Origin: Actinomycetota bacterium
Lineage (GTDB): Bacteria; Actinomycetota; Acidimicrobiia; Acidimicrobiales; RAAP-2
Length of the DNA: 49,239 bases
Assembly: GCA_021324355.1 (NCBI GenBank)
Contig: JAJPJD010000020.1
Location: forward strand, 1 to 49,239
Direction: 5' to 3'
The notes beneath the pieces are model-generated. The model searched no databases and was not told where the DNA came from. It saw only the letters and a program-made list of their open reading frames with translations. This document shows positions 706 to 25,282 of the stretch, piece after piece (positions within the stretch are counted from its first letter, which is position 1; every line of letters begins with the position of its first letter). A program made the position numbers and the translations under genes.

Positions 706-1632
706 TCAGCCCTCGGTGGGCCGATCGCGAGTCTCCAGCCAGCGCCGCAACCCGGCGGCGTTGGAATGGACGCCGTTCATGACCTGGAACTTCTCCTGGT
801 GCTCGGGCTCGACCGACCCAGCAGGCGGGTCGAAGCGCCGGGCCAGCGCCTCGGCGATGTCCTCACCCTGCCGGAAGGCGGCCTCGGCGGTCTCCGCCCA
901 CTGGCGCAGGGTCGCGTCCGCCTCGGCCAGGATCTCCTCGGGCCCCTCGAGCAGCCCGTAATGGGCCAGGGCGAGCGCGCTCGGGCGTCGCTCGGCGAAT
1001 CGCCGGAGTGAATTGAGCGCCAGCTCGAGGTCGAAGTCCGGTGGCGGGGTCGAGGGGCGCAGCACCCCAACGTCGGGGAGCCGGACCCCCACCGCGTCAC
1101 CGACGAACAGGATCCCGCTCTCGGAGTCGTGCAGGCCCACGTGGTGCTTGGCATGGCCGGGCGAGTCGACCGCGGTGAGGGTGCGCCCTGGTGAGACCTC
1201 GATCTCCTCCCCGTCGGCCAGGACGTGGAGCCGGCTCGCCGGGGTGGGGTCGAGGCGGCCGTAGAGGGAATCGAGCAACGGGCCGTAGACCTGCGCAGCC
1301 GAGGCGATGAGCCGGGTCGGATCGGCCAGGTGCCGGGCGCCCTTCTCGTGCACGTAGACGGTCGCGTTGGGGTACGCCCGGGCCACGTCGCCCACCCCGC
1401 CGGCGTGGTCGAGGTGGATGTGGGTCACCACGACCCCGGCCAGGTCGGCCGGCCCGAGCCCCAGAGTCGCCAGCGCCTCTAAGACCACCGGCACCGACGT
1501 CTGGCTCCCGGTCTCCACCAGCACCGGGGCGGTCCCCTCGATGAGGTAGCCGGCGGTCACCCGTTGCCACCCCCCGAGCAGGGTGTCGATCTCAATCACT
1601 CCCGGTCCAATGTGGTGCGCGCCGGTCGTCAC
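706..1632 (-). CDS. MBL-fold metallo-hydrolase
   Basis: This is a 308-residue metallo-beta-lactamase-fold hydrolase. The metal-binding signature HIHLDH is at residues 71-76, with further candidate ligands His160 (DSPGH), Asp179 (FVGDA) and His224 (LAHYG), so the two-metal site looks complete. No signal peptide is present, so it is probably cytoplasmic. The GTG start overlaps the TGA of the upstream glucose dehydrogenase gene (GTGA), implying translational coupling. Family members hydrolyse thioesters, lactones or phosphoesters, and the substrate cannot be read from sequence. Its place after a glycosidase and a glucose dehydrogenase makes a sugar lactone an attractive but unproven substrate. 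Confidence 0.88.
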   Translation of the reverse strand: MTTGAHHIGPGVIEIDTLLGGWQRVTAGYLIEGTAPVLVETGSQTSVPVVLEALATLGLGPADLAGVVVTHIHLDHAGGVGDVARAYPNATVYVHEKGARHLADPTRLIASAAQVYGPLLDSLYGRLDPTPASRLHVLADGEEIEVSPGRTLTAVDSPGHAKHHVGLHDSESGILFVGDAVGVRLPDVGVLRPSTPPPDFDLELALNSLRRFAERRPSALALAHYGLLEGPEEILAEADATLRQWAETAEAAFRQGEDIAEALARRFDPPAGSVEPEHQEKFQVMNGVHSNAAGLRRWLETRDRPTEG

Positions 1633-2675
1633 CTACCCACCTCCACCACGACCTTTACGTCGTCAGGCTCCCGATCGAGTGCCGTGGACCACTCCGCAAG
1701 GGGGACCCGGCGGGTGATCAGGCGCTCGAGCCATCCCCGATCGGCCTTGGCCAACGCCGCTGCCCCGGCCTCATAGTGTCGCCGGTTGGCGTTGACCGAA
1801 CCCACCACCGACTCGTTCTCCAGCACCATCGAGCGGTTGAGCGAGCCGGCATCGACGTCGATCGGACGGCCGCCCGAGGAGACCCCGGTCAAGCAGACCA
1901 CCCCGCCCGGGCCCACGTGTTCGATCGCGTCGAACACCAACGACCCGACGCCGGTGCACTCGATGATGGCGTCGGGGGACGGGCAGGCATCTTCGATCGT
2001 GCCGGTGTGGTAGTGGGCGCCCAGGGCGCGGACCAGGTCCGGCTTGCGGCCCCGCTCCATCTGGTCGATGACGTGCACCTCCAACCCCCGCTGGACGGCG
2101 AGGAGGGCCGCCAAGAGGCCGACCGGACCGGCCCCGGTCACCACCGCGGTGGTGGGCGCCCAGTGCGCCCGTGACCCGATCCGCTCGACCTGCTCCCACG
2201 CCTTGGCCACCACGCTGGTGGGCTCAAGCAGTACCCCGAGCTCGCCCAGCGAGGGGTCGACCTTGACCACGAAGTCCGGGGTGATCCGGTACCGCTCCGA
2301 GAGGTAGCCGTCGTGGGCCTTGATGCCCCGCTCGGTGTACTGGCCGTTGCGGCAGAAGTCCCACTCGCCGACCGCGCAGTTGGGGCACGGGACCGGGTCG
2401 GGCCGCCGGACGATGCCGACCACCAGGTCTCCCGGCGCGACCGGGGCGCCCGGGGGCGCCTCCAGCACCCGCCCCAGCGACTCGTGGCCGAGGACCAGGC
2501 GGTCACGGCCGGGGGGCGGCCAGCCGTAGGCGCCGGAGAGGATCTCGGCATCGGTCCCGCAGATCCCGACGGCCACCGTCTCCACCAGGACCTCCCCGTC
2601 GGCCTGGGGCGGCTCGTCGACGTCGGCCAGCGCGGCAGTGCCGCGCTGGCGGGGGACCACGGTCAGAGCCTTCAT
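1629..2675 (-). CDS. Glucose 1-dehydrogenase-type zinc alcohol dehydrogenase
   Basis: This is a 348-residue medium-chain dehydrogenase. The N-terminal GroES-like domain carries the catalytic zinc motifs (GICGTDAEI near 38-46, GHES near 64) and a Cys-rich stretch around PCPNCAVGEWDFC. The nucleotide-binding motif GAGPVGLLAA follows near residue 185. The block GIKAHDGYLSERYRI and the segment VLLEPTSVVAKAWEQ are typical of glucose 1-dehydrogenases, which oxidise glucose with NAD(P) to gluconolactone. The ATG at 2675 has a GAGGAGG site and overlaps the GH15 stop (ATGA). Context with a glucose-releasing enzyme upstream supports sugar oxidation. Other polyols or sugars remain possible as substrate. 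Confidence 0.85.
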   Translation of the reverse strand: MKALTVVPRQRGTAALADVDEPPQADGEVLVETVAVGICGTDAEILSGAYGWPPPGRDRLVLGHESLGRVLEAPPGAPVAPGDLVVGIVRRPDPVPCPNCAVGEWDFCRNGQYTERGIKAHDGYLSERYRITPDFVVKVDPSLGELGVLLEPTSVVAKAWEQVERIGSRAHWAPTTAVVTGAGPVGLLAALLAVQRGLEVHVIDQMERGRKPDLVRALGAHYHTGTIEDACPSPDAIIECTGVGSLVFDAIEHVGPGGVVCLTGVSSGGRPIDVDAGSLNRSMVLENESVVGSVNANRRHYEAGAAALAKADRGWLERLITRRVPLAEWSTALDREPDDVKVVVEVGR

Positions 2676-4657
2676 GGCTTCCTCCTCGAACGGCGGCCCC
2701 CCTGGGTGGGGGCCCGATCGGCCCGGACGTGGAGGCGCTGGCCGTGCGGGCCCCGGCCATCGGCGGCCACGCGGCCGGTGCCCCACATCCGCCACGGGTG
2801 CCGGCTGGCCCGGCCCATGGTGACCAGGGGCGCGCCGAGCGCAGCCACCGTGGGGTGCCGGGCTCCGTCGTCGGTCACGGGCTCGACCTCGTGGCCGGCC
2901 AGCCTGAAAGCGGTGTTCACCAACGAGACGTGCGAGAACGCCTGGGGGAAGTTGCCAACCTGACGCTTGCGGACCGGGTCGTACTCCTCGCTCAGCAACC
3001 CGAGGTCGTTGCGGAGCCCGAGCAGCCGTTCGAACAGCTCCACCGAGTCGTCCACCCGACCGATCATGTGCAGGCAGTCGGCCAGCCAGAACGAACAGGC
3101 GAGGAAGGCACCCTCGCGCCCGGTGAGGCCATCCTCCTCGCCGTCGTCGCTGGTCAGGTAGCGCAGGACGAAACCGTCGTGCAGGAGCTCCCGCTCGACC
3201 GCCTCGACGGTGGAGACCACCCGCGGATCCTCGGGTGGGAGGAAGCCCACCAGGGGGATCATGAGGAGACTGGCGTCGAGTTGGTCGGAGCCGTAGTACT
3301 GGGTGAAGGAGCGCTTCTCCTCGCTGTAGCCCTTGTCGCAGACCTCGGAGTGGATCTGGTCCCGCACCGACCGCCAGCGCTCCAGCGGGCCCTCCAGGGT
3401 CGGCCAGGCCTCGAGGGTCCGCACTGCCCGGTCGAAGGCGACCCACGCCATGACCTTGGAGTGGGTGAAGTGCCGCCTCGGCCCCCGCACCTCCCAGATC
3501 CCGTCGTCGGGCTGCTTCCACCCCTCCTCGAGGAACTCCACCATCCCCCGCTCGAGATCCCACATCGCCCGACTGATGACCCCGTCGAACTGGCACGCGG
3601 TGAACAGCGCGTCCATGACCTCGCCGTAGACGTCCAGCTGGTACTGGCCAGAGGCGGCGTTGCCGACCCGGACCGGCCGGGACCCCTCGTAGCCGGCAAG
3701 CCAGTCGACTTCCCACTCGTCGAGCCGCCGCTCGCCCGCCGCCCCGTACATGATCTGGAGCTTCGAGACGTCGCCGGAGGCGGCCCGCAGCAACCAGTCC
3801 CGCCAGGCCATGGCCTCCTCGTGGTAGCCGCCCCGCATGAGCGACTGGAGCGTGAGGGTCGCGTCGCGCAGCCAGCAGTACCGGTAGTCCCAGTTGCGGT
3901 TGCCACCGATGGCCTCGGGCAGCGACGTGGTGGCGGCGGCCACGATCCCACCGGTCGGTTCATAGGTCAGGGCCTTGAGCGTGATGAGCGACCGCACCAC
4001 CGCGTCGCGATACTCCCCCTCGTAGGTGCACCCGGCCGCCCAGGACCGCCACCAGGCCGTGGTCGAGGCGATCGAGTACCACGGGTCCACCGGCCGAGGC
4101 GGCAGCTCGTGGGAGAGGTACCAGGTGAGGATGAAGGGCACGTTCTGTCCCTCGGCCAGTGTGCATTCGGCCACCGTGGACAATCCCTCGCCCCTGGTCT
4201 CGGCCAGCGTCCACAGGGCCAGCGAGTCCGGGCCGGCGGTCGCGGTCAGCAGGTTCTCGTTACTGGTCACCCACGGCACGACCTGGCCGTAGCCGAAGCG
4301 GATCACCAGCTCTATCCGGACGTCGACCCGGCCCGAGAGGCACTCGACGACCCGGACGACCTGGGGGTGGGCCTCCCGAATCGGCATGCAGTCGGTCAGG
4401 CGCAGCACCCCGGTGGGGGTGGTGAAGTCGGTCTCGAGGACCAAGGTGTCCTCCCGGTACCGGCGCTCGGTCCGGGTGACTGGGCCTGCCGGGGCGATCT
4501 TCCAGTAACCGTTGTCGGTGTCGCCCAGCAGCTTGGCGAAACAAGCGTCCGAGGCAAAGTGGGGCAGGCACAGCCAGTCGATCGAGCCGTCCCGCCCGAT
4601 GAGGGCGGCGGTATGGAGGTCGCCGATCACGGCGTAGTCCTCGATCGGCTGTCGCAC
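2672..4657 (-). CDS. Glycoside hydrolase family 15 (glucoamylase/trehalase-like)
   Basis: This is a 661-residue intracellular GH15 enzyme. The N-terminal beta domain begins PIEDYAVIGDLHTAALIGRD, the (alpha/alpha)6 catalytic domain includes RNWDYRYCWLRDA at 254-266, and GNFPQAFSHVSLVN lies near the C-terminus, all family hallmarks. No signal peptide is visible. Members cleave terminal glucose from alpha-glucans or trehalose; many actinobacterial ones are trehalases, so either substrate is possible. The last roughly 55 residues are a basic, low-complexity tail not typical of the family. The GTG at 4657 follows GGAGG by four bases. The gene begins an ATGA-coupled series leading into glucose dehydrogenase and an MBL hydrolase. 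Confidence 0.9.
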   Translation of the reverse strand: MRQPIEDYAVIGDLHTAALIGRDGSIDWLCLPHFASDACFAKLLGDTDNGYWKIAPAGPVTRTERRYREDTLVLETDFTTPTGVLRLTDCMPIREAHPQVVRVVECLSGRVDVRIELVIRFGYGQVVPWVTSNENLLTATAGPDSLALWTLAETRGEGLSTVAECTLAEGQNVPFILTWYLSHELPPRPVDPWYSIASTTAWWRSWAAGCTYEGEYRDAVVRSLITLKALTYEPTGGIVAAATTSLPEAIGGNRNWDYRYCWLRDATLTLQSLMRGGYHEEAMAWRDWLLRAASGDVSKLQIMYGAAGERRLDEWEVDWLAGYEGSRPVRVGNAASGQYQLDVYGEVMDALFTACQFDGVISRAMWDLERGMVEFLEEGWKQPDDGIWEVRGPRRHFTHSKVMAWVAFDRAVRTLEAWPTLEGPLERWRSVRDQIHSEVCDKGYSEEKRSFTQYYGSDQLDASLLMIPLVGFLPPEDPRVVSTVEAVERELLHDGFVLRYLTSDDGEEDGLTGREGAFLACSFWLADCLHMIGRVDDSVELFERLLGLRNDLGLLSEEYDPVRKRQVGNFPQAFSHVSLVNTAFRLAGHEVEPVTDDGARHPTVAALGAPLVTMGRASRHPWRMWGTGRVAADGRGPHGQRLHVRADRAPTQGGRRSRRKP

Positions 4658-5992: not shown

Positions 5993-7165
5993 ATGTCGAG
6001 CGGGAAGCCCCGCCCACCAGCTTCCCGCACCCGATGGGGTCTCGCCGTGGCGCTCGCCCTCATCGCCGCGCCCGTCGCCGCCAGCTCGGCCGGCGCGGCC
6101 ACGCACCACCGGCGGCCCCCGCCCCCGGTGGTGGCGGTGGGTCAGCCGGCACCCGGCTCGCTGACCAGTGCCACCGCGCTCGCCTGCGCCGACGCCAGGC
6201 ATTGCTGGGCGGTGGGACTGAGCCCAACCGGGGTGGCCATCGACGCGACCTTCGACGGCGGGGCGACCTGGCGGAGTGAGGCCCCGCCGGCCGGGCTGAC
6301 CGTGCTGGCCGGGGTGTCCTGCCCGGCCAGGTCGAACTGTCTGGCGGTCGGCGCCGCCGGGGACGCCGGCGCGGTGGCAGTGACCGACGACGGCGGTCGG
6401 ACCTGGGGGCTCGGCCAGGACCCCTCCGGCGCGATCGCCCTGAGCGCGCTCAGCTGCCCGGCCAAGGACCGCTGCCTGGCCTTGGCGACCGATGGCTCGG
6501 CGTGGTGGGCCGCCCTCAGTGTCGACCAGGGCGAGAGCTGGACCCGCGAGGGGGACCTGCCGGCGGGGATGGTGCCGGCCAGCCTCGCCTGTCCAGGACC
6601 GACGCGCTGCATCGCCGTGGGGTCCACGCCCAGCACGCCCGGGAGGGCGGCCGGCGCGGTCGCCCTCAGCACCGACGGTGGCGCGACCTGGGCGCCGGTA
6701 ACCCTCCCCACCGGCGTGGGGATCCTGCGCGCCGTGGCCTGTGCCGCTGCCACCTGCATTGCCGCCGGTACCCCGTCCACCGCCACTACCGGGCTTGTGG
6801 CCGCGCCGGGCCAGCTCGTGACCAGCGCCAACGGCGGCGCGAGCTGGACCATCGTCCCCAGGAACCTCCCCGACGACGCCTACGGCGTGGCCTGTCCCGA
6901 GGCGACCGTCTGCCTGGTGGTCGGCACCGACTGGGTGGGCAAGGATCCCCCACGGCCCACCGGGGCCATCCTCGCGACCCTTGACGGCGGCCGGTCGTGG
7001 CGAGCGGCCCGGCTCCGCTACGTGCCGGTCGGGGTGGCGGCGGTGGCCTGCCCGGTCGTCGACCGCTGCCTGGCGGCCGGAGGCAACGTGCTGGTCACGG
7101 TCACGCTCCCGGTCCACCCGCCCCCGGCCCCGGCCCCCCGGGCCGGGATCGCCGGCGCGCACTGA
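5993..7165 (+). CDS. Secreted BNR/Ycf48-like beta-propeller with paired cysteines
   Basis: 390 residues with a Sec signal peptide (Arg-rich start, hydrophobic core, cut near ASSAGAA at about 36). The mature part holds seven repeats, most at 45-residue intervals. Each contains a cysteine pair (C65/C71, C110/C116, C155/C161, C200/C206, C250/C255, C301/C307, C353/C359) followed by an alternating hydrophobic strand such as WAVG or LAVG. Six Asp-box-like turns (for example DGGATW, DQGESW, DGGRSW) lie between them, as in BNR/sialidase-type propellers. A His/Pro-rich linker precedes the repeats. The ATG at 5993 follows GGAGGGGG. Such proteins are usually annotated as exo-alpha-sialidase-like, but no catalytic residues are evident; a structural or binding role is more likely. 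Confidence 0.8.
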   Translation: MSSGKPRPPASRTRWGLAVALALIAAPVAASSAGAATHHRRPPPPVVAVGQPAPGSLTSATALACADARHCWAVGLSPTGVAIDATFDGGATWRSEAPPAGLTVLAGVSCPARSNCLAVGAAGDAGAVAVTDDGGRTWGLGQDPSGAIALSALSCPAKDRCLALATDGSAWWAALSVDQGESWTREGDLPAGMVPASLACPGPTRCIAVGSTPSTPGRAAGAVALSTDGGATWAPVTLPTGVGILRAVACAAATCIAAGTPSTATTGLVAAPGQLVTSANGGASWTIVPRNLPDDAYGVACPEATVCLVVGTDWVGKDPPRPTGAILATLDGGRSWRAARLRYVPVGVAAVACPVVDRCLAAGGNVLVTVTLPVHPPPAPAPRAGIAGAH

Positions 7166-19469: not shown

Positions 19470-19507
19470 GCCCGGGGTTGTCGTCGAGGCCCGGGGTTGT
19501 CGTCGAG
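19470..19507 (+). repeat. Perfect 19-bp tandem duplication
   Basis: GCCCGGGGTTGTCGTCGAG occurs twice without a gap (19470-19488 and 19489-19507), immediately followed by the Shine-Dalgarno of the alkylsulfatase-like gene. It probably arose by slippage and places a second GC-rich block in the 5' leader. Confidence 0.85.
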
Positions 19508-19519
19508 GGAGGAGCCGCC

Positions 19520-20818
19520 GTGCCGACACCGACCATCCGAGAGCTGGCCGAGCGCCATTTCCGAGGCCACGGCGACCTGGTCCACGAGCACCACCCGGTG
19601 GCCCCGGTCCTGCGGCGCCAGGCCGAGGAGATCGACGACGGGGTCCTCTACATCAAGAGCGTCTCGTCCATCACCGTCATCGACAGCGGCGACGGGCTCC
19701 TCCTCCTCGACACCGGCGGCCCGTACGACGCCGACGTGGTGTTCGAGGCCACCCGGCGCTGGCGCCCGAGCACGCCGGCCGCCCTGGCCGTCTTCTCCCA
19801 CCACCACATCGACCACGTCTTCGGGACCGCCCGCTTCGAGGCCGAGGCGGCCGAGCGGGGCTGGCCGGCCCCCACCGTCTACGGCCACCAGCTGATGGCG
19901 TCGCACTTCGACCGCTACGAGCGCACCCGGGGCTGGAACGCCGCCATCAATCAGCGCCAGTTCGGCCTGCCGGTGGACACCTACACCTGGCCGGAGCGGT
20001 TCCGCCGCCCCGACGTGACCTACGACCAGTCCCTCACGATCACCCGGGGCGGCCTCACCGTGGAGCTGCACCACGCCCGAGGGGAGACCGACGACGCCAC
20101 CTGGACCTGGATCCCCGAGCGCCGCCTGCTGCACCCCGGCGACCTGTTCGTCTACTCGGTCCCCAACGCCGGCAACCCCCAGAAGGTGCAGCGCTACCTG
20201 AGCGACTGGGCCGAGGCCCTGCGGGCCATGGCCGACCTCGGGGCCGAGATCCTGGTGTCCGGCCACGGCCTGCCGATCTTCGGCGCCGACCGCATTCGCC
20301 AGGCCCTCGGCCACACCGCCGAGCTGCTCGACTCCTTGGAGGACCAGACCCTCGAGCTCATGAACCGCGGCCTGTCGCTCGACCAGGTGATCCACCAGGT
20401 CCAGGTCCCAGCGCACCTGCGGGACCTGCCCTACCTCCGCCCGGTGTACGACCACCCCCAGTTCCTGGTGCGCAACGTCTGGCGCCGCTACGGCGGCTGG
20501 TACGACGGGGAGCCGGACAACCTGCTGCCAGCCCCTCGGGCCGAGCAGGCGGCCGCCTGGGTCGAACTGGCCGGCGGGGTGGAGCCAGTGGTGGCCCGGG
20601 CCGAGGCGCTGGCCGCCGCCGGCAACCTCCGCCTGGCCTGCCACCTGATCGAGGCGGCGGTGCTGGCCGAGCCGGGGTCCCACGCCGCCCACGCCGCCCG
20701 GACCCGGATCTACGACCAGCGGGCCGACCAGCAGGAGTCCTCCATGGCCCGCAACCTCTTGCGCCACGCCGCCCGGTCGAGCGAGCACCACCAGCGCGAC
20801 CTGGCCGGCCACTTCTGA
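19520..20818 (+). CDS. Alkylsulfatase-like MBL-fold hydrolase
   Basis: 432 residues. The N-terminal MBL domain carries HHHIDH (94-99), then His ligand regions in LHHARGETDDATW and HPGDLF. The C-terminal segment (NVWRRYGGWYDGEPDNLLP and the helical LACHLIEAAVLAEPGSHAAH) matches the dimerisation domain of SdsA1-type alkylsulfatases, which cleave sulfate from alkyl sulfates such as detergents. The SCP2-like third domain of full SdsA1 enzymes is missing, and no signal peptide is seen, so it would act in the cytoplasm. The GTG at 19520 is seven bases after GGAGG. The substrate is inferred from domain make-up. Confidence 0.83.
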   Translation: MPTPTIRELAERHFRGHGDLVHEHHPVAPVLRRQAEEIDDGVLYIKSVSSITVIDSGDGLLLLDTGGPYDADVVFEATRRWRPSTPAALAVFSHHHIDHVFGTARFEAEAAERGWPAPTVYGHQLMASHFDRYERTRGWNAAINQRQFGLPVDTYTWPERFRRPDVTYDQSLTITRGGLTVELHHARGETDDATWTWIPERRLLHPGDLFVYSVPNAGNPQKVQRYLSDWAEALRAMADLGAEILVSGHGLPIFGADRIRQALGHTAELLDSLEDQTLELMNRGLSLDQVIHQVQVPAHLRDLPYLRPVYDHPQFLVRNVWRRYGGWYDGEPDNLLPAPRAEQAAAWVELAGGVEPVVARAEALAAAGNLRLACHLIEAAVLAEPGSHAAHAARTRIYDQRADQQESSMARNLLRHAARSSEHHQRDLAGHF

Positions 20819-20974: not shown

Positions 20975-21152
20975 TGGCGGCTGCTATGCGTCCCCGACGG
21001 CAGATCAGGGCGGACGGGCAAGGGCTCGACCATGCGCCGGAGCGATGCAGAAGGGCTCACCGCCATTCTGATGTTCGCGAATCGAGGTCGCATGAGGGCG
21101 TTGCGCAGAGCGTTGCCCCACTCTGATCGCGGCCGGCGAAGGCCGGTTCATA

Positions 21153-21160
21153 GAAGTTTC
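21153..21160. repeat. Left copy of 8-bp target-site duplication
   Basis: GAAGTTTC directly precedes the left terminal repeat, and the same eight bases follow the right terminal repeat at 24084-24091. An 8-bp duplication is the norm for IS1595-family transposition. Confidence 0.85.
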
Positions 21161-21184
21161 GGGGACTATCTAGTTGACGCACCA
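21161..21184 (+). repeat. Left terminal inverted repeat of IS1595-like element
   Basis: Starts GGGGACTATCTAGTTGA and continues CGCACCA. It matches 23 of 24 bases of the right end; the single mismatch is C versus T at position 18. Confidence 0.88.
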
Positions 21185-21208
21185 TGGTGTCTCATGTAGA
21201 CTGTGGGT

Positions 21209-22183
21209 ATGGAGCCGCTGAACCTCGCCACCCTCCCGAAGTACCTTTCCGATGAGGGCGCCGCCTGGGAGCTGCTGGAGCGCCTGCGCTGGCCCGAGGG
21301 CCAGGTCGTCTGCCCCCATTGTGGCGTGATCGACCCAGCGCACTACTTCATCGCTGCCCGTTCCGGTGAGCGCAAGACCCGAACCGGCCAGACCACCTAC
21401 CGTCGCCTGTGGCGCTGCCGCCATTGCCGCAAGCAGTTCAGCGTCTTGGTCGGCACCATCTTCGAGTCCTCCAAGATCCCCGTCTCCAAGTGGCTGCTTG
21501 CCATGTGGCTGTTCAACGCGGGCAAGAACGGGGTGAGCGCCCTGGAGCTTCAGCGCCATCTTGGCGTCAGCTACCAGACGGCCTGGTTCCTCGGCCACCG
21601 GCTCCGCGAAGCCGTTACCCGGGAACCACTGTCGTCGCTCCTGTCGGGGACCGTCGTGGCCGATGAGACGTGGGTGGGTGGCGAGCCGAAGAACCGCCAC
21701 GCCAACAAGCGCGTCGGAAGCAAGCAGGGCCTCACTGACAAGACGCCGGTGGTGGCCCTGGTCCACAAGGAGAGCGGCGAGGTCCGAACCCGCGTTGTGG
21801 CCAACGTGAACGGCGAGAACCTGCGCCAGGTCCTCACCAGCCACGTGGACCCCGCGACTACCCATCTGCACACCGACTCGGCGCAGGTCTATATGCCATT
21901 AGGCAAGAAGTTCGCCTCGCACGGCACGGTGAACCACTCCATCGGGGAGTACGTCCGGGATGGTGTGAGCACGAACGAGGCGGAGTCCTTCTTCGCCCAG
22001 TTCAAGCGGAGCCTTGATGGCACCCACCACAACGTCTCGAAGGACCACCTGCACCGCTACGCCACCGAGTTCGAGTTCCGGTGGAATACCCGAAAGATGA
22101 CCGACGCCGAGCGGGTGCAGAAGATTATCGGTGCGAGTGTGGGCAAGCGGCTCACGTACCGGCCACTGACCGATCGTTCGTAA
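21209..22183 (+). CDS. IS1595-family (ISXO2-like) DDE transposase
   Basis: 324 residues. An N-terminal zinc ribbon (CPHC at 35-38, CRHC at 70-73) is followed by the signature FSVLVGTIFESSKIPVSKWL and a helix-turn-helix region (ALELQRHLGVSYQTAWFLGHRLR). The catalytic domain has Asp152 (VADETWVGG), Asp223 (LHTDSAQVY) and an acidic residue in STNEAESFFAQFKR near 257-259. Full length with no frameshift, so likely active. The ATG at 21209 lies six bases after TAGACT, suggesting a leaderless transcript starting inside the element, 48 bases from its left end. Confidence 0.93.
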   Translation: MEPLNLATLPKYLSDEGAAWELLERLRWPEGQVVCPHCGVIDPAHYFIAARSGERKTRTGQTTYRRLWRCRHCRKQFSVLVGTIFESSKIPVSKWLLAMWLFNAGKNGVSALELQRHLGVSYQTAWFLGHRLREAVTREPLSSLLSGTVVADETWVGGEPKNRHANKRVGSKQGLTDKTPVVALVHKESGEVRTRVVANVNGENLRQVLTSHVDPATTHLHTDSAQVYMPLGKKFASHGTVNHSIGEYVRDGVSTNEAESFFAQFKRSLDGTHHNVSKDHLHRYATEFEFRWNTRKMTDAERVQKIIGASVGKRLTYRPLTDRS

Positions 22184-22373
22184 CGGGCAGATGGTCGTAC
22201 CCAGCCCAGCGCTGGAGTGCGGCCTGAAAAGCTCGTGCTGCGTCCTCCTCGGATCGTTCCACAACGCCCAGGCGGATGGCGCTTCCAGGGGCGCTCACGG
22301 CCAGCCACCGGCCACCAACCCCTCTCCAAATGACTGGCTGGATCTGTTCTATTGGCGTGTCGGTAGTGATCAT
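22152..22373 (-). CDS. 73-residue passenger protein, possibly HicB-like fold
   Basis: A short gene convergent with the transposase, overlapping its last 32 bases. The ATG at 22373 lies exactly six bases after TACATT on the minus strand, strong support for a real leaderless gene. The protein has a beta-beta-alpha look: WRGVGGRWLAVSAP, IRLGVVERS, then a helix EEDAARAFQAALQRWAGY. This resembles the partial RNase-H-like fold of HicB-type antitoxin domains, but no DNA-binding domain or HicA partner is seen, so the resemblance is weak. No function is assigned. Confidence 0.55.
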   Translation of the reverse strand: MITTDTPIEQIQPVIWRGVGGRWLAVSAPGSAIRLGVVERSEEDAARAFQAALQRWAGYDHLPVTNDRSVAGT

Positions 22374-22504
22374 GTGACGAATGTAGCTTCATTATCCCTA
22401 GTAACTGACCCTTTTGCTGCGGGCAGCTCAATCGCATACCGCAACGCATATCAAACAACGGCGAGGATATTGTTCGAGCCATAACGGTGTGGTAGGGTTT
22501 GGGT
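22374..22504. promoter_or_regulatory. Divergent leaderless promoters inside the IS1595-like element
   Basis: This AT-rich intergenic region carries TACATT (22380-22385, minus strand) for the 73-residue gene and TAGGGT (22493-22498, plus strand) for the DUF5343-like gene, each six bases before its start codon. No convincing palindrome was seen between them. Confidence 0.55.
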
Positions 22505-23287
22505 ATGGCCCTCCAAACAGGAGGCACCGGCCCCTATGCACCCGCCGGTGCCATCATCGAAGTGATTGAGCGCTATCGCGATCGAGGACTCCAGACACCG
22601 ATCACTACGGACGTGCTGGAGCGGGTCGGAATCCCAGAGAGCCTGTCGCAACGGACACTCCAGGCGCTTCGGCTGCTCGACTTTGTCGACGCCGACGGCC
22701 AGCCGAGCGCGGAACTGGAACGACTCTCACGGGTGCCGGATGACGGGGAATTCAAGCAGGGCATTCGGGAGCTGTTGACCGCCGCTTACGCGGAGGTCTA
22801 CTCCTACGTCGACCCGGCTACCGACGGGATCGACAAGGTGCGAGGCGCGTTCCGGGCCTACAACCCCCGTAGCCAGCAGGATCGCATGGTCTCGCTCTTC
22901 CTGGGCTTATGCGAGTGGGCCGGGGTCGACACGACCGCGGCAGCGGCGTCCAAGAAGAAGACTCGGGCAGAGAAGGCGCCGGCCCCGAAGACCAACGGCC
23001 CCCAGCGCCCCGCAACCCCGCAACCCCGCAAGCCCCGAGAGGTCAAGGCCGCTCGCGGGGGCGCCTCGTCTGGGCCCGCTGCCTCACCCCTTGGCGATAC
23101 AGCCGGACTCCCACCCGGTCTCGTCGGGTTGCTACAGCAGATACCCCGGGGGGGAGCCGGCTGGCCGGAAGCACGCCGGGACGAGTTCCTGATCGCGTTC
23201 AAGGCGGTCCTGGACTTCTCGGTCCCTGTTCGCGACCAAGAGCCCACCTCGGCCTCGATCGTCGAAGAAGAGGGGGCCGATCCATGA
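22505..23287 (+). CDS. DUF5343-like passenger protein
   Basis: 260 residues. The N-terminal 135 residues look like DUF5343, a winged-helix-like family often found on mobile DNA: SQRTLQALRLLDFVDADGQP, a charged stretch, then IRELLTAAYAEVYSYVD and MVSLFLGLCEWAG. A Lys/Pro/Ala-rich linker (about 138-205) leads to a second small helical module (LPPGLVGLLQQIP, RRDEFLIAFKAVLDFSVPV). No enzymatic motif is visible. The ATG at 22505 follows TAGGGT by six bases. Its presence as cargo suggests an accessory role in transposition or host interaction, but that is speculation. Confidence 0.75.
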   Translation: MALQTGGTGPYAPAGAIIEVIERYRDRGLQTPITTDVLERVGIPESLSQRTLQALRLLDFVDADGQPSAELERLSRVPDDGEFKQGIRELLTAAYAEVYSYVDPATDGIDKVRGAFRAYNPRSQQDRMVSLFLGLCEWAGVDTTAAAASKKKTRAEKAPAPKTNGPQRPATPQPRKPREVKAARGGASSGPAASPLGDTAGLPPGLVGLLQQIPRGGAGWPEARRDEFLIAFKAVLDFSVPVRDQEPTSASIVEEEGADP

Positions 23288-23457
23288 GGAGGTGAGCTGC
23301 CCCCGGACCCTCTAGCGGGCGGGCCACTTTGCGGAGACCTTGCCGCGGTCCGGGGGCGCCCCACCAGGGGCACGTCTTGGTCGACCACCGCCGGCCCTTG
23401 GAAGCTGCGGTGTCGGGTCCGATCCCCGAGTGCTCCACCTATTGTAGGGTGGTCACC

Positions 23458-23622
23458 GTGGTAAAGCGCGAACGCCCAGTTCAGGGGCAGCCCACGCCCG
23501 AGGAGTTCGAGGAGTTCGTCGCCGCGGCCCTGAAGGTGGACCCAAAGGGCCTATCGGGGAAGCATCGGAAGGACCCGGAGAAGCAGGCGACGGTCGTCCG
23601 CCCTCGGAAGCAGGCTCACTAG
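23458..23622 (+). CDS. 54-residue basic passenger protein
   Basis: A small gene with a predicted leaderless promoter, TAGGGT seven bases before the GTG at 23458 (an in-frame GTG also exists at 23449). The protein begins VKRERPVQGQPTPEEFEEFV, continues with an Ala/Lys helix and ends in a basic tail. No family is recognised. It lies 170 bases after the DUF5343-like gene and its stop overlaps the end of the opposing membrane-protein gene by four bases. The small size means the call rests mainly on promoter placement. Confidence 0.5.
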   Translation: MVKRERPVQGQPTPEEFEEFVAAALKVDPKGLSGKHRKDPEKQATVVRPRKQAH

Positions 23623-24041
23623 TACCCTCGCCTGCGGTGGCGAACACCCCTCAACTCCTCCGCCCATCCCAGCCGTTGCTCGCGCAGCTCGTCGGCATGG
23701 CGTTCGCGCATCTCACGCTCGACGGCCAAGGAGTAGTCATGGCGTTCCCTCTGGCGAGCGATTTCGGCAGAGACCTCCGCATCGGGAATGCCCCGCACAG
23801 GCGGACGACCCTTGACGGGAGCCGGCGCGCGCTTGAACGGCGGTAGCCCAAAGAGGGGAGCGAACACAAAGTAAAGACAGACAAGTGTCAAGGCACCGAA
23901 CAGCACGGCCGGCCACCAGGGAAGGGACGACCCTCTTTGAGCGGCGATTGTCCATACTGCAAAGGCGCCCCCGGCAAGAATCATCGCGGGCACTCCCCAT
24001 GCGGCGACCCATGCTCCATGACGGCCCTCTCCTGTCTGCAC
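23619..24041 (-). CDS. Two-helix membrane protein with charged C-terminal helix (passenger)
   Basis: 140 residues. Two hydrophobic segments (about 10-34, and 41-66 including WWPAVLFGALTLVCLYFVFA) are followed by a Pro-rich turn and a long Arg/Glu helix (IARQRERHDYSLAVEREMRE onward) likely to form a cytoplasmic coiled coil. The GTG at 24041 lies six bases after TAGAAT on the minus strand. The promoter sits just inside the right terminal repeat, so the gene belongs to the element. No homologous family is recognised. Confidence 0.65.
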   Translation of the reverse strand: MQTGEGRHGAWVAAWGVPAMILAGGAFAVWTIAAQRGSSLPWWPAVLFGALTLVCLYFVFAPLFGLPPFKRAPAPVKGRPPVRGIPDAEVSAEIARQRERHDYSLAVEREMRERHADELREQRLGWAEELRGVRHRRRGY

Positions 24042-24059
24042 AACGGAATTCTATCGGTG

Positions 24060-24083
24060 TGGTGCATCAACTAGATAGTCCCC
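24060..24083 (-). repeat. Right terminal inverted repeat of IS1595-like element
   Basis: On the minus strand it begins GGGGACTATCTAGTTGA and continues TGCACCA, matching the left end at 23 of 24 positions. Confidence 0.88.
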
Positions 24084-24091
24084 GAAGTTTC
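24084..24091. repeat. Right copy of 8-bp target-site duplication
   Basis: GAAGTTTC, identical to 21153-21160, marks the right insertion boundary. It is followed by GGGGATCGG, which shares its first five bases with the element end by chance or by target preference. Confidence 0.85.
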
Positions 24092-24187
24092 GGGGATCGG
24101 TTCTGCTGCGGCGGTGCTCCGGCGCATGGTGACGTCCTCGCTCACGTCGAGCCCCCCACGCGAGGCGAGCCGGTCGAGCTGGGCATC

Positions 24188-25282
24188 TCAGGCGGTCATC
24201 TCCGCCCACAAGAACCCAGAGAGCTCGCGGGCGATGGCGGTGACGACGGTCTTGCGGTTGGCCTTCCTGGCGTCGAGTCTGCGGAACCGTCCGCACAGGC
24301 GCAGCTGGGCGTTCCAGGACCGGGCGACGACGGCAGGGTCGAGGCCCTCCTGGCGACGCTTGAGCTCGGCACCGACCGACGGTGCCGATCGGTAGACCCA
24401 GGCGGACTCGACGAGTTGGGTGCGCAGATGGGTGTTGCCGGCGTGGGTGATGCCACCGCGCCGTGTCCGCTCCCCGCTCGAGCGTTCCGAGGGCACGAGC
24501 CCGCAGAACCCGCTGAACATCGCCGAGCTGGGAAAGCGTCGCCAGTCGCCGACTTCGGTGACCAAGGTGAGGGCTCCGAGCTCGGTCACGCCCCGATAAG
24601 CGGCCAGGCGGCGGACACTGTGGACGAAGGGCTCTGTGGCGAACCACGTGGCGAGCTCGGCATCGATGGCGTCGACCGCGGCTTCCCGGGCCTCGAGCGT
24701 GGCGCGGTAGTGGGCCAAGGTGGCAATGAGCGCCGGCTCGTCGAAGCGCTGGGAGCGGATCCAGATGTGGTGTTTGAGCGTCCAGTTCTTCCCGTCACGC
24801 CAGACTCGCCCGTGTCGCAGGAGGAATTTGTTGAGCCGGTGCTGGGCCCGGGTGCGGTCGAGCACCATGTCGGCCCGGGCCCGGCACAAATCCCGCACCG
24901 CCTCCTCGCCGACGGTGGGGACCCGCACGGCGCTGAGCTGTCCGCCGCGCAGCAGCAGGGCGAGGCGTTTGGCGTCTCGGCGGTCGGTCTTCACCCGGTC
25001 GGCGGGAGCCACGGGAATGAGCGATGGGGCCACCACCTCACAGCGCACCCCGAGGCGGCTAAGCAGGCGGGCCAGCTCGTAGCCGGTGGGCCCGGCCTCG
25101 TAGCAGGCCACCAGCCGTCGGGGGTCGGGGAAGCGGGCCACCAGGTGCCGGACAGCGTCGGGGTCCGAGGAGATCTTGTCCACCACCGGGGTGTCCGAGC
25201 CTGCCTCGAGCACCGCTGCGGTGATCGTCAACTTGTGAACGTCCAGGCCAAGGAGTGTCGAATCGTGCGGCACACTGATCAT
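24188..25282 (-). CDS. IS110-family DEDD transposase
   Basis: 364 residues with both IS110 domains. The N-terminal RuvC-like DEDD domain shows Asp14 (LGLDVHKLT), Glu62 (YEAGPTG), Asp100 and Asp103 (KTDRRDAKRLA). The C-terminal domain, which carries the catalytic serine in this family, has FSGFCGLVPSERSSGERTRR followed by GGITHAGNTHLR. The gene is intact from ATG 25282 to TGA 24188. IS110 enzymes work with a structured bridge RNA encoded in a non-coding end of the element. A strongly structured segment lies just upstream of this start. Confidence 0.93.
   Translation of the reverse strand: MISVPHDSTLLGLDVHKLTITAAVLEAGSDTPVVDKISSDPDAVRHLVARFPDPRRLVACYEAGPTGYELARLLSRLGVRCEVVAPSLIPVAPADRVKTDRRDAKRLALLLRGGQLSAVRVPTVGEEAVRDLCRARADMVLDRTRAQHRLNKFLLRHGRVWRDGKNWTLKHHIWIRSQRFDEPALIATLAHYRATLEAREAAVDAIDAELATWFATEPFVHSVRRLAAYRGVTELGALTLVTEVGDWRRFPSSAMFSGFCGLVPSERSSGERTRRGGITHAGNTHLRTQLVESAWVYRSAPSVGAELKRRQEGLDPAVVARSWNAQLRLCGRFRRLDARKANRKTVVTAIARELSGFLWAEMTA

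Follow-up and report, generated by a model that had tools for sequence, protein, structure and literature searches.

An IS1595-family transposon from an Actinomycetota genome with a DUF5343 protein gene and a compact tRNA-like RNA among its cargo

Insertion sequences that carry cargo genes are known, and the passenger-bearing members of the IS1595 family, exemplified by the ISNha5-like group, share a transposase with a zinc ribbon and a DDE domain, terminal inverted repeats, an 8-bp target-site duplication and cargo genes between their ends. Here we describe an element of this family at positions 21161-24083 of a 49,239-nucleotide stretch of Actinomycetota bacterium DNA (contig JAJPJD010000020.1 of assembly GCA_021324355.1; hereafter the window, or W), in which a tRNA-like RNA follows the gene for a DUF5343 protein. 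In the excerpts of the tRNA literature cited here, G3:U70 is the identity pair of alanine (PMC11415595, PMC7609411). Allo-tRNAs are presented there as odd bacterial tRNAs with mismatched anticodons, some of which carry G3:U70 (PMC7609411), and tRNA-ProX of Streptomyces, together with ProRSx, as dual-identity tRNAs thought to cause deliberate mistranslation (PMC11415595).

The element is complete. Its left (21161-21184, + strand) and right (24060-24083, - strand) inverted repeats of 24 bp agree at 23 of 24 positions in a letter-by-letter comparison and diverge beyond them, and the ends of its relatives are similar to the left repeat. Identical copies of the duplication GAAGTTTC flank it at 21153-21160 and 24084-24091, an agreement that one given pair of 8-mers would show by chance about once in 65,000. 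The transposase of 326 amino acids (aa; 21203-22183, +; GTG start at 21203, alternative ATG at 21209) matches Pfam DDE_Tnp_IS1595 (E 1.1e-38) and Zn_ribbon_IS1595 (E 9.9e-14), as well as NCBIfam IS1595 (NF033547, E 8.3e-57). Transposase domains, terminal repeats and duplication are thus all present and confirm membership in the IS1595 family; an IS1595-like element with exactly these ends had been proposed by a first-pass annotation made from the letters of the window. The element occurs as a single copy in its own genome, where the sole other DNA match is 143 bp long, internal to the transposase gene and located on another contig.

Downstream of the DUF5343 gene (22505-23287, +) lie a hairpin and the tRNA-like RNA, both on the + strand. 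The hairpin (23299-23357) pairs 23299-23309 with 23347-23357 around a branched inner part, and the segment 23285-23366 folds with a z value of -2.12. The unannotated RNA of about 71 nt (23367-23437) is recognized by conservation, covariation and a score of 96.8 bits with its own model (R1), in which it served as a training sequence. Its acceptor, GGGGCAC/GTGCTCC, contains G3:U70 and is accompanied by A73; a 3-bp D-like arm has GG in its loop, an extended arm is closed by the loop CCUUGGAA (UUGGA), and the T arm reads TCGGG-TCCGATC-CCCGA. By pairing, the acceptor branch is of the 7/5 type, and the core between acceptor and T arm measures 35-40 nt. In an alignment with the related locus L065, similarity is higher past the DUF5343 stop than within the gene itself, and indels there break any common reading frame: identity is 63.5% for the DUF5343 DNA, 86.8% for the hairpin (68 columns, 7 gap columns) and 97.1% for the RNA (69 columns, 3 gap columns), beyond which the sequences are not alignable. 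Across four sequences, 97.6% of the cells of the structure are paired and six pairs change on both sides, a number that 2 of 500 shuffles reach; the covariation score of 0.381 is attained by none of 500 shuffles, and versions of the structure slid along the alignment stay at or below 0.135.

General tRNA tools pass over this RNA. The window stretch contains no RF00005 match (positions 21100-24150) and no RF00023 match at E <= 1, and the RNA is absent from the 44 RF00005 and 7 RF00023 matches of the genome. ARAGORN called no tRNA on the window, its relaxed thresholds giving mostly noise; a stricter four-arm scan did not pick the RNA up, and plasmid and phage collections yielded no match to the RNA block. 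An Rfam snoRNA match on the element (E 0.4) was discarded as a chance hit, and a role of the RNA as attachment site was rejected because its distance from the element ends is about 650 bp or more. The four non-transposase open reading frames (ORFs) of the first-pass annotation are present as described and the element carries genuine cargo, but that inventory lacked the structured RNA between the DUF5343 gene and the 54-aa ORF, which is the best-conserved non-transposase product.

Relatives of the transposase were collected from three sources: 396 genomes of the phylum (36 of which, its own included, match at E <= 1e-20, and from which 16 stretches were taken), one scan of genome contigs (the best 80 of 93 loci) and viral contigs (36 loci plus L148). 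In the viral contigs, neither the window transposase nor the DUF5343 protein, used as a single query, retrieved a relative; alignment queries retrieved 1 and 36 loci. A script that examined the surroundings of each transposase for inverted repeats accompanied by an 8-bp duplication delimited 61 elements in the 97 loci of the genome set (window included, and at least two of the 97 being duplicates), with an exact duplication in 58 of 61, and 20 elements in the 37 loci of the viral set, with an exact duplication in 19 of 20; delimited relatives with five or more repeat mismatches, such as L083, L123, L131, L138, L240 and L247, may be false. A bare insertion sequence of the IS1595 kind measures about 1 kb. 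The median size here is 2508 bp, and 58 of 60 delimited elements (window included, L083 dropped as doubtful, L045 dropped as a duplicate of L067, L148 added) reach at least 1600 bp, so cargo is normal for this transposase clade. By eye, it is varied and includes methyltransferase-like, Fic-like, MazF-like and protease-like proteins. The L065 transposase is 49% identical to that of the window.

RNAs with the same alanine-type (Ala-type) acceptor recur among these loci. A structure scan for a 7-bp acceptor, a T arm and A73 returned 12 rows from 160 kb of elements, nine of them with G3:U70: six RNAs (W, L059, L061, L062, L065 and L148), second readings for two of these, and an AT-rich row at L138 judged spurious. 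The 422 kb of flanks gave 5 rows, one with G3:U70 (an ordinary-looking tRNA), the 303 kb of loci without delimited ends gave 7 rows, again one with G3:U70 (L077, a tRNA-Asp by ARAGORN), and three mononucleotide shuffles gave 0, 0 and 0 G3:U70 rows. No Ala-type RNA was added by a relaxed scan of 23 further loci; its three rows were set aside, one being the known L044 tRNA read from a different start, one the L077 tRNA-Asp and one spurious. Model R1, run on 92 and 36 sources (leaving out L056-L058, L066, L067, L125 and L128, of which L066 and L067 duplicate others), had its two best viral matches at L217 and L239, both directly behind the transposase on the opposite strand, and its third in a tRNA-Ala of a viral tRNA array; it missed L061 and L148, which the structure scan had found. 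A further RNA, at L067 (identical to L045), has 6 of 7 acceptor pairs with one G.G mismatch; ARAGORN calls it tRNA-Pro(UGG), and the Rfam tRNA model gives it 26.8 bits, below the gathering score.

The resulting nine Ala-type RNAs belong to nine loci, seven of them with delimited ends (all except L217 and L239). G1:C72, G2:C71 and G3:U70 are found in all nine, acceptor pairs 4-7 and T-stem pairs 1-3 covary with their partners, and the loop contains UGG in seven. When R1 was applied to the 396 genomes (12 candidates scored per genome under strict filters, so that weak members may escape), 205 matched at E <= 0.1; only the window and G408, which holds the L045 element, exceeded 80 bits, and the rest stayed at or below 41. 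Of the next-best genomic matches checked, 26 of 28 were tRNA-Ala and the others Met and Lys. The R1 scores of the weak members (L062, 40.0; L217, 44.5; L239, 41.1 bits) cannot by themselves part them from tRNA-Ala; the distinction lies in the compact core, the silence of ARAGORN, the lack of an Rfam tRNA match at E <= 1 and the place behind a transposase.

A UGG loop is also found on class II tRNAs that look leucine-like by eye, at L075 (43.9 bits), L091 (54.6 bits) and L222 (52.7 bits), with delimited ends in L091 alone. At L075, two tandem tRNAs (6501-6684, -) stand directly behind a DUF5343 gene, a class I tRNA with GCU (C33 by eye) and the leucine-like tRNA with UGG. L044 has a class II tRNA with CCA directly behind its transposase, and L039 an odd tRNA called Ala CGC, in which no G3:U70 is seen by eye. 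The L083 tRNA was set aside for its doubtful element ends. Two further observations concern tRNA genes near such transposases. On the IMG/VR contig of L244 (6893-9964, -), an IS1595-like transposase lies near an array of 33 tRNA genes (ARAGORN), an ordinary tRNA-Ala included. In the L107 element, an ORF at element bases 1521-3230 (-) begins like a translated tRNA 3' end (GVRFPSPAL) and may mark another tRNA, although the Rfam tRNA model has no match in that element at E <= 1.

The protein encoded just upstream of the window RNA, 260 aa long, matches PF17278 with 69.5 bits (E 4.8e-19, gathering cut-off 27), which bears out its earlier labelling as DUF5343-like; it also matches the PADLOC candidate phage-defence profile PDC-M34A (E 2.1e-8). 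Its AlphaFold2 model is fair at residues 10-150 (mean 68 overall), and residues 12-86 of the model match winged helices at Z 4.7-6.5, which tentatively suggests that this is probably a winged-helix protein. Foldseek gave no match to the model below E 0.001. A BrxA match (Z 5.7 over 128 residues) fell within the noise range of the tool, and a PDB sequence match (E 0.62) was a single chance hit. DUF5343 is rare, occurring in 6 of 396 genomes; plasmid and phage collections contained no relative of the window protein, and the plasmids none of the L075 protein. G122 has a partial DUF5343-like match, and neither ARAGORN nor R1 found an RNA at G399 (DUF5343-like, one internal stop) or G049 (weak, partial).

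The best-conserved cargo forms a cassette: a 73-aa ORF (-), the divergent DUF5343 gene (+), the hairpin and the tRNA-like RNA (+). In the DUF5343 subfamily of the window, which was delimited after the alignment had been seen, all five full-length members found (W, L065, L148, L075 and L039) have a same-strand hairpin behind them and, about 50-120 nt downstream, a tRNA or tRNA-like RNA; the DUF5343 loci L145-L147 have no adjacent tRNA. L148 repeats the whole window order, from the transposase (+) through the 73-aa homologue (-) and DUF5343 (+) to hairpin and RNA. The 10.5 kb of L039 contain no match to an IS1595 transposase at E <= 1e-3, so the cassette exists apart from the element too. An ORF stops 47-98 nt short of the RNA at L059, L061, L062, L217, L239 and L222, and by eye its product looks like a winged helix, in most cases preceded by a coiled coil. 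Pfam gives winged-helix hints below cut-off for L059 (HTH_12, E 0.0087) and L217 (AbiEi_4, E 0.003) and none for the L061, L062 and L222 ORFs; the best Pfam match of the L059 ORF is a gas-vesicle family (E 0.00018, below cut-off). Altogether, eleven cassettes have a DUF5343 or probable winged-helix ORF just upstream, six of them in delimited elements, and at L091 a greater distance separates the tRNA from a coil-like protein (Mrr_N E 0.0012, below cut-off). In the nine cases folded alongside shuffled controls, the segment preceding the RNA outdid the shuffles in eight (z -1.73 to -5.68; L067, -0.76); the segments of L059, L217, L239 and L222 were folded without controls.

The 73-aa ORF (22152-22373, -) is divergent from the DUF5343 gene and shares 32 bp at its 3' end with the transposase gene. 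It has no match in Pfam, NCBIfam, PHROGs or PADLOC, and no Pfam or NCBIfam family, HicB included, appears at E <= 1; at L039, a HicB-like ORF occupies its position with a weak match (E 0.13). Homologues adjoin DUF5343 in L065 (50% over 58 aa) and L148 (34% over 53 aa), and the divergent pair is kept inside the ends of both elements, inverted as a block in L065 and in window order in L148. Mismatches by codon position against L065 (19/19/31) lean to coding. The 54-aa basic ORF (23458-23622, +, GTG start) has a homologue in L074 (phmmer E 8.4e-15; codon-position mismatches 8/7/23), whereas the 140-aa ORF (23619-24041, -), membrane-protein-like by eye, has no homologue at E <= 1e-3 in the loci searched and no family above cut-off in Pfam, NCBIfam, PHROGs or PADLOC. 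The suggestion that the four cargo genes form one set is not supported: the pair of 73-aa ORF and DUF5343 recurs in L065 and L148, but neither locus has a direct match to the 54-aa or 140-aa ORF. L074 (3741-6405), the closest transposase relative (79-80% identical), has a transposase split into two ORFs and an imperfect duplication (2 mismatches in 8 bp), which leaves its ends less sure; its cargo includes a DUF3800 gene (Pfam E 3.4e-7) and the 54-aa homologue, whereas DUF5343, the 73-aa ORF and the RNA model all go unmatched. Copies lacking the cargo had been named as evidence against a true module, and L074 goes part of the way towards such a case. The cargo may have a stabilisation or immunity role.

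Many elements of the clade encode a small protein of 40-60 aa with the approximate motif F-x-x-F-x-x-L-x-x-L-x-x-V-P-K or L-x-P-L-x-x-E-x-A-L-x-x-L-L. In the genome set, profiles of this family match at E <= 0.01 inside the element in 36 of 60 delimited loci and in none of the flanks (157 of 594 kb being inside), a partly circular count because the profiles were built iteratively on that set; 14 genome-set loci without delimited ends also match. Frozen profiles match 16 of 37 loci of the viral set at E <= 0.05 (11 inside the element, 5 without delimited ends), and one further match falls beyond the delimited element at L231, where a second transposase is present. L065 holds a member by profile. 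The 54-aa ORF carries the motif by eye and tentatively belongs to the family: left out of the profiles, it scores weakly (E 0.36 and 0.09), and a core profile of five sequences did not detect it; a first profile that included it was discarded as circular. At L051 (4996-5127, +), a longer protease-like ORF carries the motif as its C-terminal tail and may be a fusion.

Around the element, an alkyl-sulfatase-like protein of the metallo-beta-lactamase fold is encoded to the left (19478-20818, +; Alkyl_sulf_dimr E 4.7e-37). To the right, an IS110-family transposase gene (24188-25282, -; Transposase_20 E 7e-18, DEDD_Tnp_IS110 E 7.1e-16) lies about 100 bp away, so the element neighbours another mobile element. 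The right junction (24079-24096), TCCCCGAAGTTTCGGGGA, is a near-palindrome composed of element end, duplication and flank.

The exact ends, the cassette order and its recurrence at other IS1595 transposases, combined with a covarying cloverleaf-like structure, an invariant G3:U70 and a recurrent UGG, lead us to favor, tentatively and at somewhat less than even odds, a cargo-bearing IS1595 transposon whose core cargo is a protein-RNA cassette, in which an alanylatable tRNA mimic acts on translation under the control of its protein partner, a stabilisation or anti-invader role included. The RNA would be co-transcribed with the upstream protein gene, cut free by the tRNA-processing enzymes of the host, given CCA and, judging from G3:U70, charged with alanine by the host alanyl-tRNA synthetase. 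An alanine identity (leucine-like at some loci) combined with a proline-reading loop would then lead to misreading or jamming of CCA/CCG codons, while the winged-helix protein would keep the RNA in check and the cassette would serve the element as a stabilisation or anti-invader module. Ordinary decoding is not where the RNA is needed, given that the host already possesses a tmRNA (transfer-messenger RNA) and, among 33 typed tRNA loci, tRNA-Pro UGG, CGG and GGG and tRNA-Ala UGC, CGC and GGC.

Several observations weigh against this proposal. The compact core without normal linkers makes use of the RNA as a tRNA by the ribosome doubtful. The tRNA-like part alone folds with unexceptional energy (z -0.06 to -1.78 in four tested), so the case for the RNA is one of covariation and conservation, not energy. 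L061 and L148 lack UGG, and other RNAs at such loci show GCU (first tRNA of L075), CGC (L039) and CCA (L044). Nine distinct Ala-type RNAs (ten loci, one duplicate) in 134 transposase loci (97 + 37) indicate that the RNA is not essential for the element. The winged-helix assignment involves middling Z values and, for most partners, inspection by eye, and the border between the L067-type RNA and odd tRNAs is soft.

A different role, which we consider unlikely though worth attention, would make the tRNA-like fold a cis-acting 3' end of the DUF5343 or winged-helix mRNA that stabilises the message or lets RNase P and RNase Z switch it off, much as certain plant viral RNAs terminate in a tRNA-like structure. 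The RNA does stand just behind a same-strand protein gene in eleven cassettes, and no T-run terminator is seen by eye in the window block. Such an end explains the position of the RNA, but neither its loop nor its conserved G3:U70, which it does not need; moreover, no ORF of at least 60 aa ends within 200 nt upstream of the L067/L045 RNA, and the L044 tRNA lies directly behind a transposase. Rather unlikely, in our judgment, is a decoy for an anticodon nuclease or tRNA-modifying toxin that recognises the UGG loop or the alanine-type acceptor, protecting host or element. It fits the occurrence of UGG on two unlike bodies, Ala-type and leucine-like, the nuclease-like genes after the RNA in L065 (4782-5417, -; NYN, Pfam E 3.6e-9, PADLOC HEC-09 E 3.6e-24) and L148 (3442-3801, +; GIY-YIG, E 0.027, below cut-off), and the weakly AbiEi-antitoxin-like partner at L217. 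A loop decoy leaves G3:U70 superfluous, however, and no nuclease gene was recognised in the window element.

The proteins by themselves might also constitute the module, for example a toxin-antitoxin or immunity system in which the RNA has no part. This appears improbable: the 73-aa ORF and DUF5343 do occur together in three IS1595 elements (W, L065 and L148), and DUF5343 matches a phage-defence candidate profile, but the four genes do not move together as one group and the RNA is better conserved than the genes compared. Most improbable is that the RNA represents an ordinary or decaying host tRNA caught as chance passenger DNA. Varied cargo in the relatives and tRNAs in the flanks would agree with that, yet the RNA is 97% identical where the neighbouring gene is 63.5% identical, G3:U70 is kept in nine of nine, and G3:U70 scan rows number nine in elements as against one in flanks, one in undelimited loci and none in shuffles. 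With the translation-acting tRNA mimic, misreading or jamming of proline codons would account for both a non-proline identity and a UGG loop on two unlike bodies. Its broadest form, for which we see a possible but less than likely case, is a new class of mobile protein-RNA module, in which a winged-helix protein would be disseminated by IS1595 transposons together with a tRNA mimic that acts in trans, is either alanine-type and tmRNA-like or leucine-like, and rewires or poisons translation at CCA/CCG through its proline UGG loop. If so, some irregular tRNA sequences reported from soil metatranscriptomes could stem from such modules, and if the RNAs are charged and active on the ribosome, transposons would carry tools that alter how proline codons are read. 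The finding names the element family and the partner protein, fixes the ends exactly and provides short RNAs that lend themselves to testing.

To our knowledge, no insertion sequence has a recurring cargo composed of a tRNA mimic with its own protein partner. The literature searched contained no paper on DUF5343 and none joining allo-tRNA and transposase, and among the matches listed, none linked such RNAs to IS1595/ISXO2 elements or to cargo-carrying insertion sequences; the novelty of the cassette is accordingly provisional. It is also what distinguishes the window element from the ISNha5-like group. With the tRNA-like domain of tmRNA (RF00023), the RNA shares the G3:U70 acceptor, a T arm placed directly before the acceptor and an extended arm where a tRNA has its anticodon arm, and its D-like part UUGG-UCGACC resembles UGGUAUCGACC of the host tmRNA by eye; unlike tmRNA, it has no mRNA-like part, and its arm is closed by a short loop, mostly UGG. 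In Rfam clan competition, the L061 RNA is kept as tmRNA rather than tRNA (34.6 bits, E 3.1e-10, below the gathering score of 47). The RNA is perhaps closer to tmRNA than to tRNA, a likeness that counts as a hint only since ordinary host tRNAs, tRNA-Ala UGC included, reach 35 bits with the same model. tRNA-Ala (RF00005) has G3:U70, A73 and the T arm in common with the RNA, which differs in that its 35-40-nt core lacks normal linkers and a variable loop and in its extended arm with the UGG loop. Within the excerpts cited, allo-tRNAs and tRNA-ProX are the closest published parallels (PMC7609411, PMC11415595). Allo-tRNAs are described with 8/4 or 9/3 acceptor branches (PMC7609411), whereas the branch is 7/5 here. 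For tRNA-ProX, the cited account gives proline elements, A34 anticodons and a partner synthetase (PMC11415595); in the present RNA, by contrast, the UGG loop goes with an acceptor that is not of the proline type, and the partner is probably a winged-helix protein.

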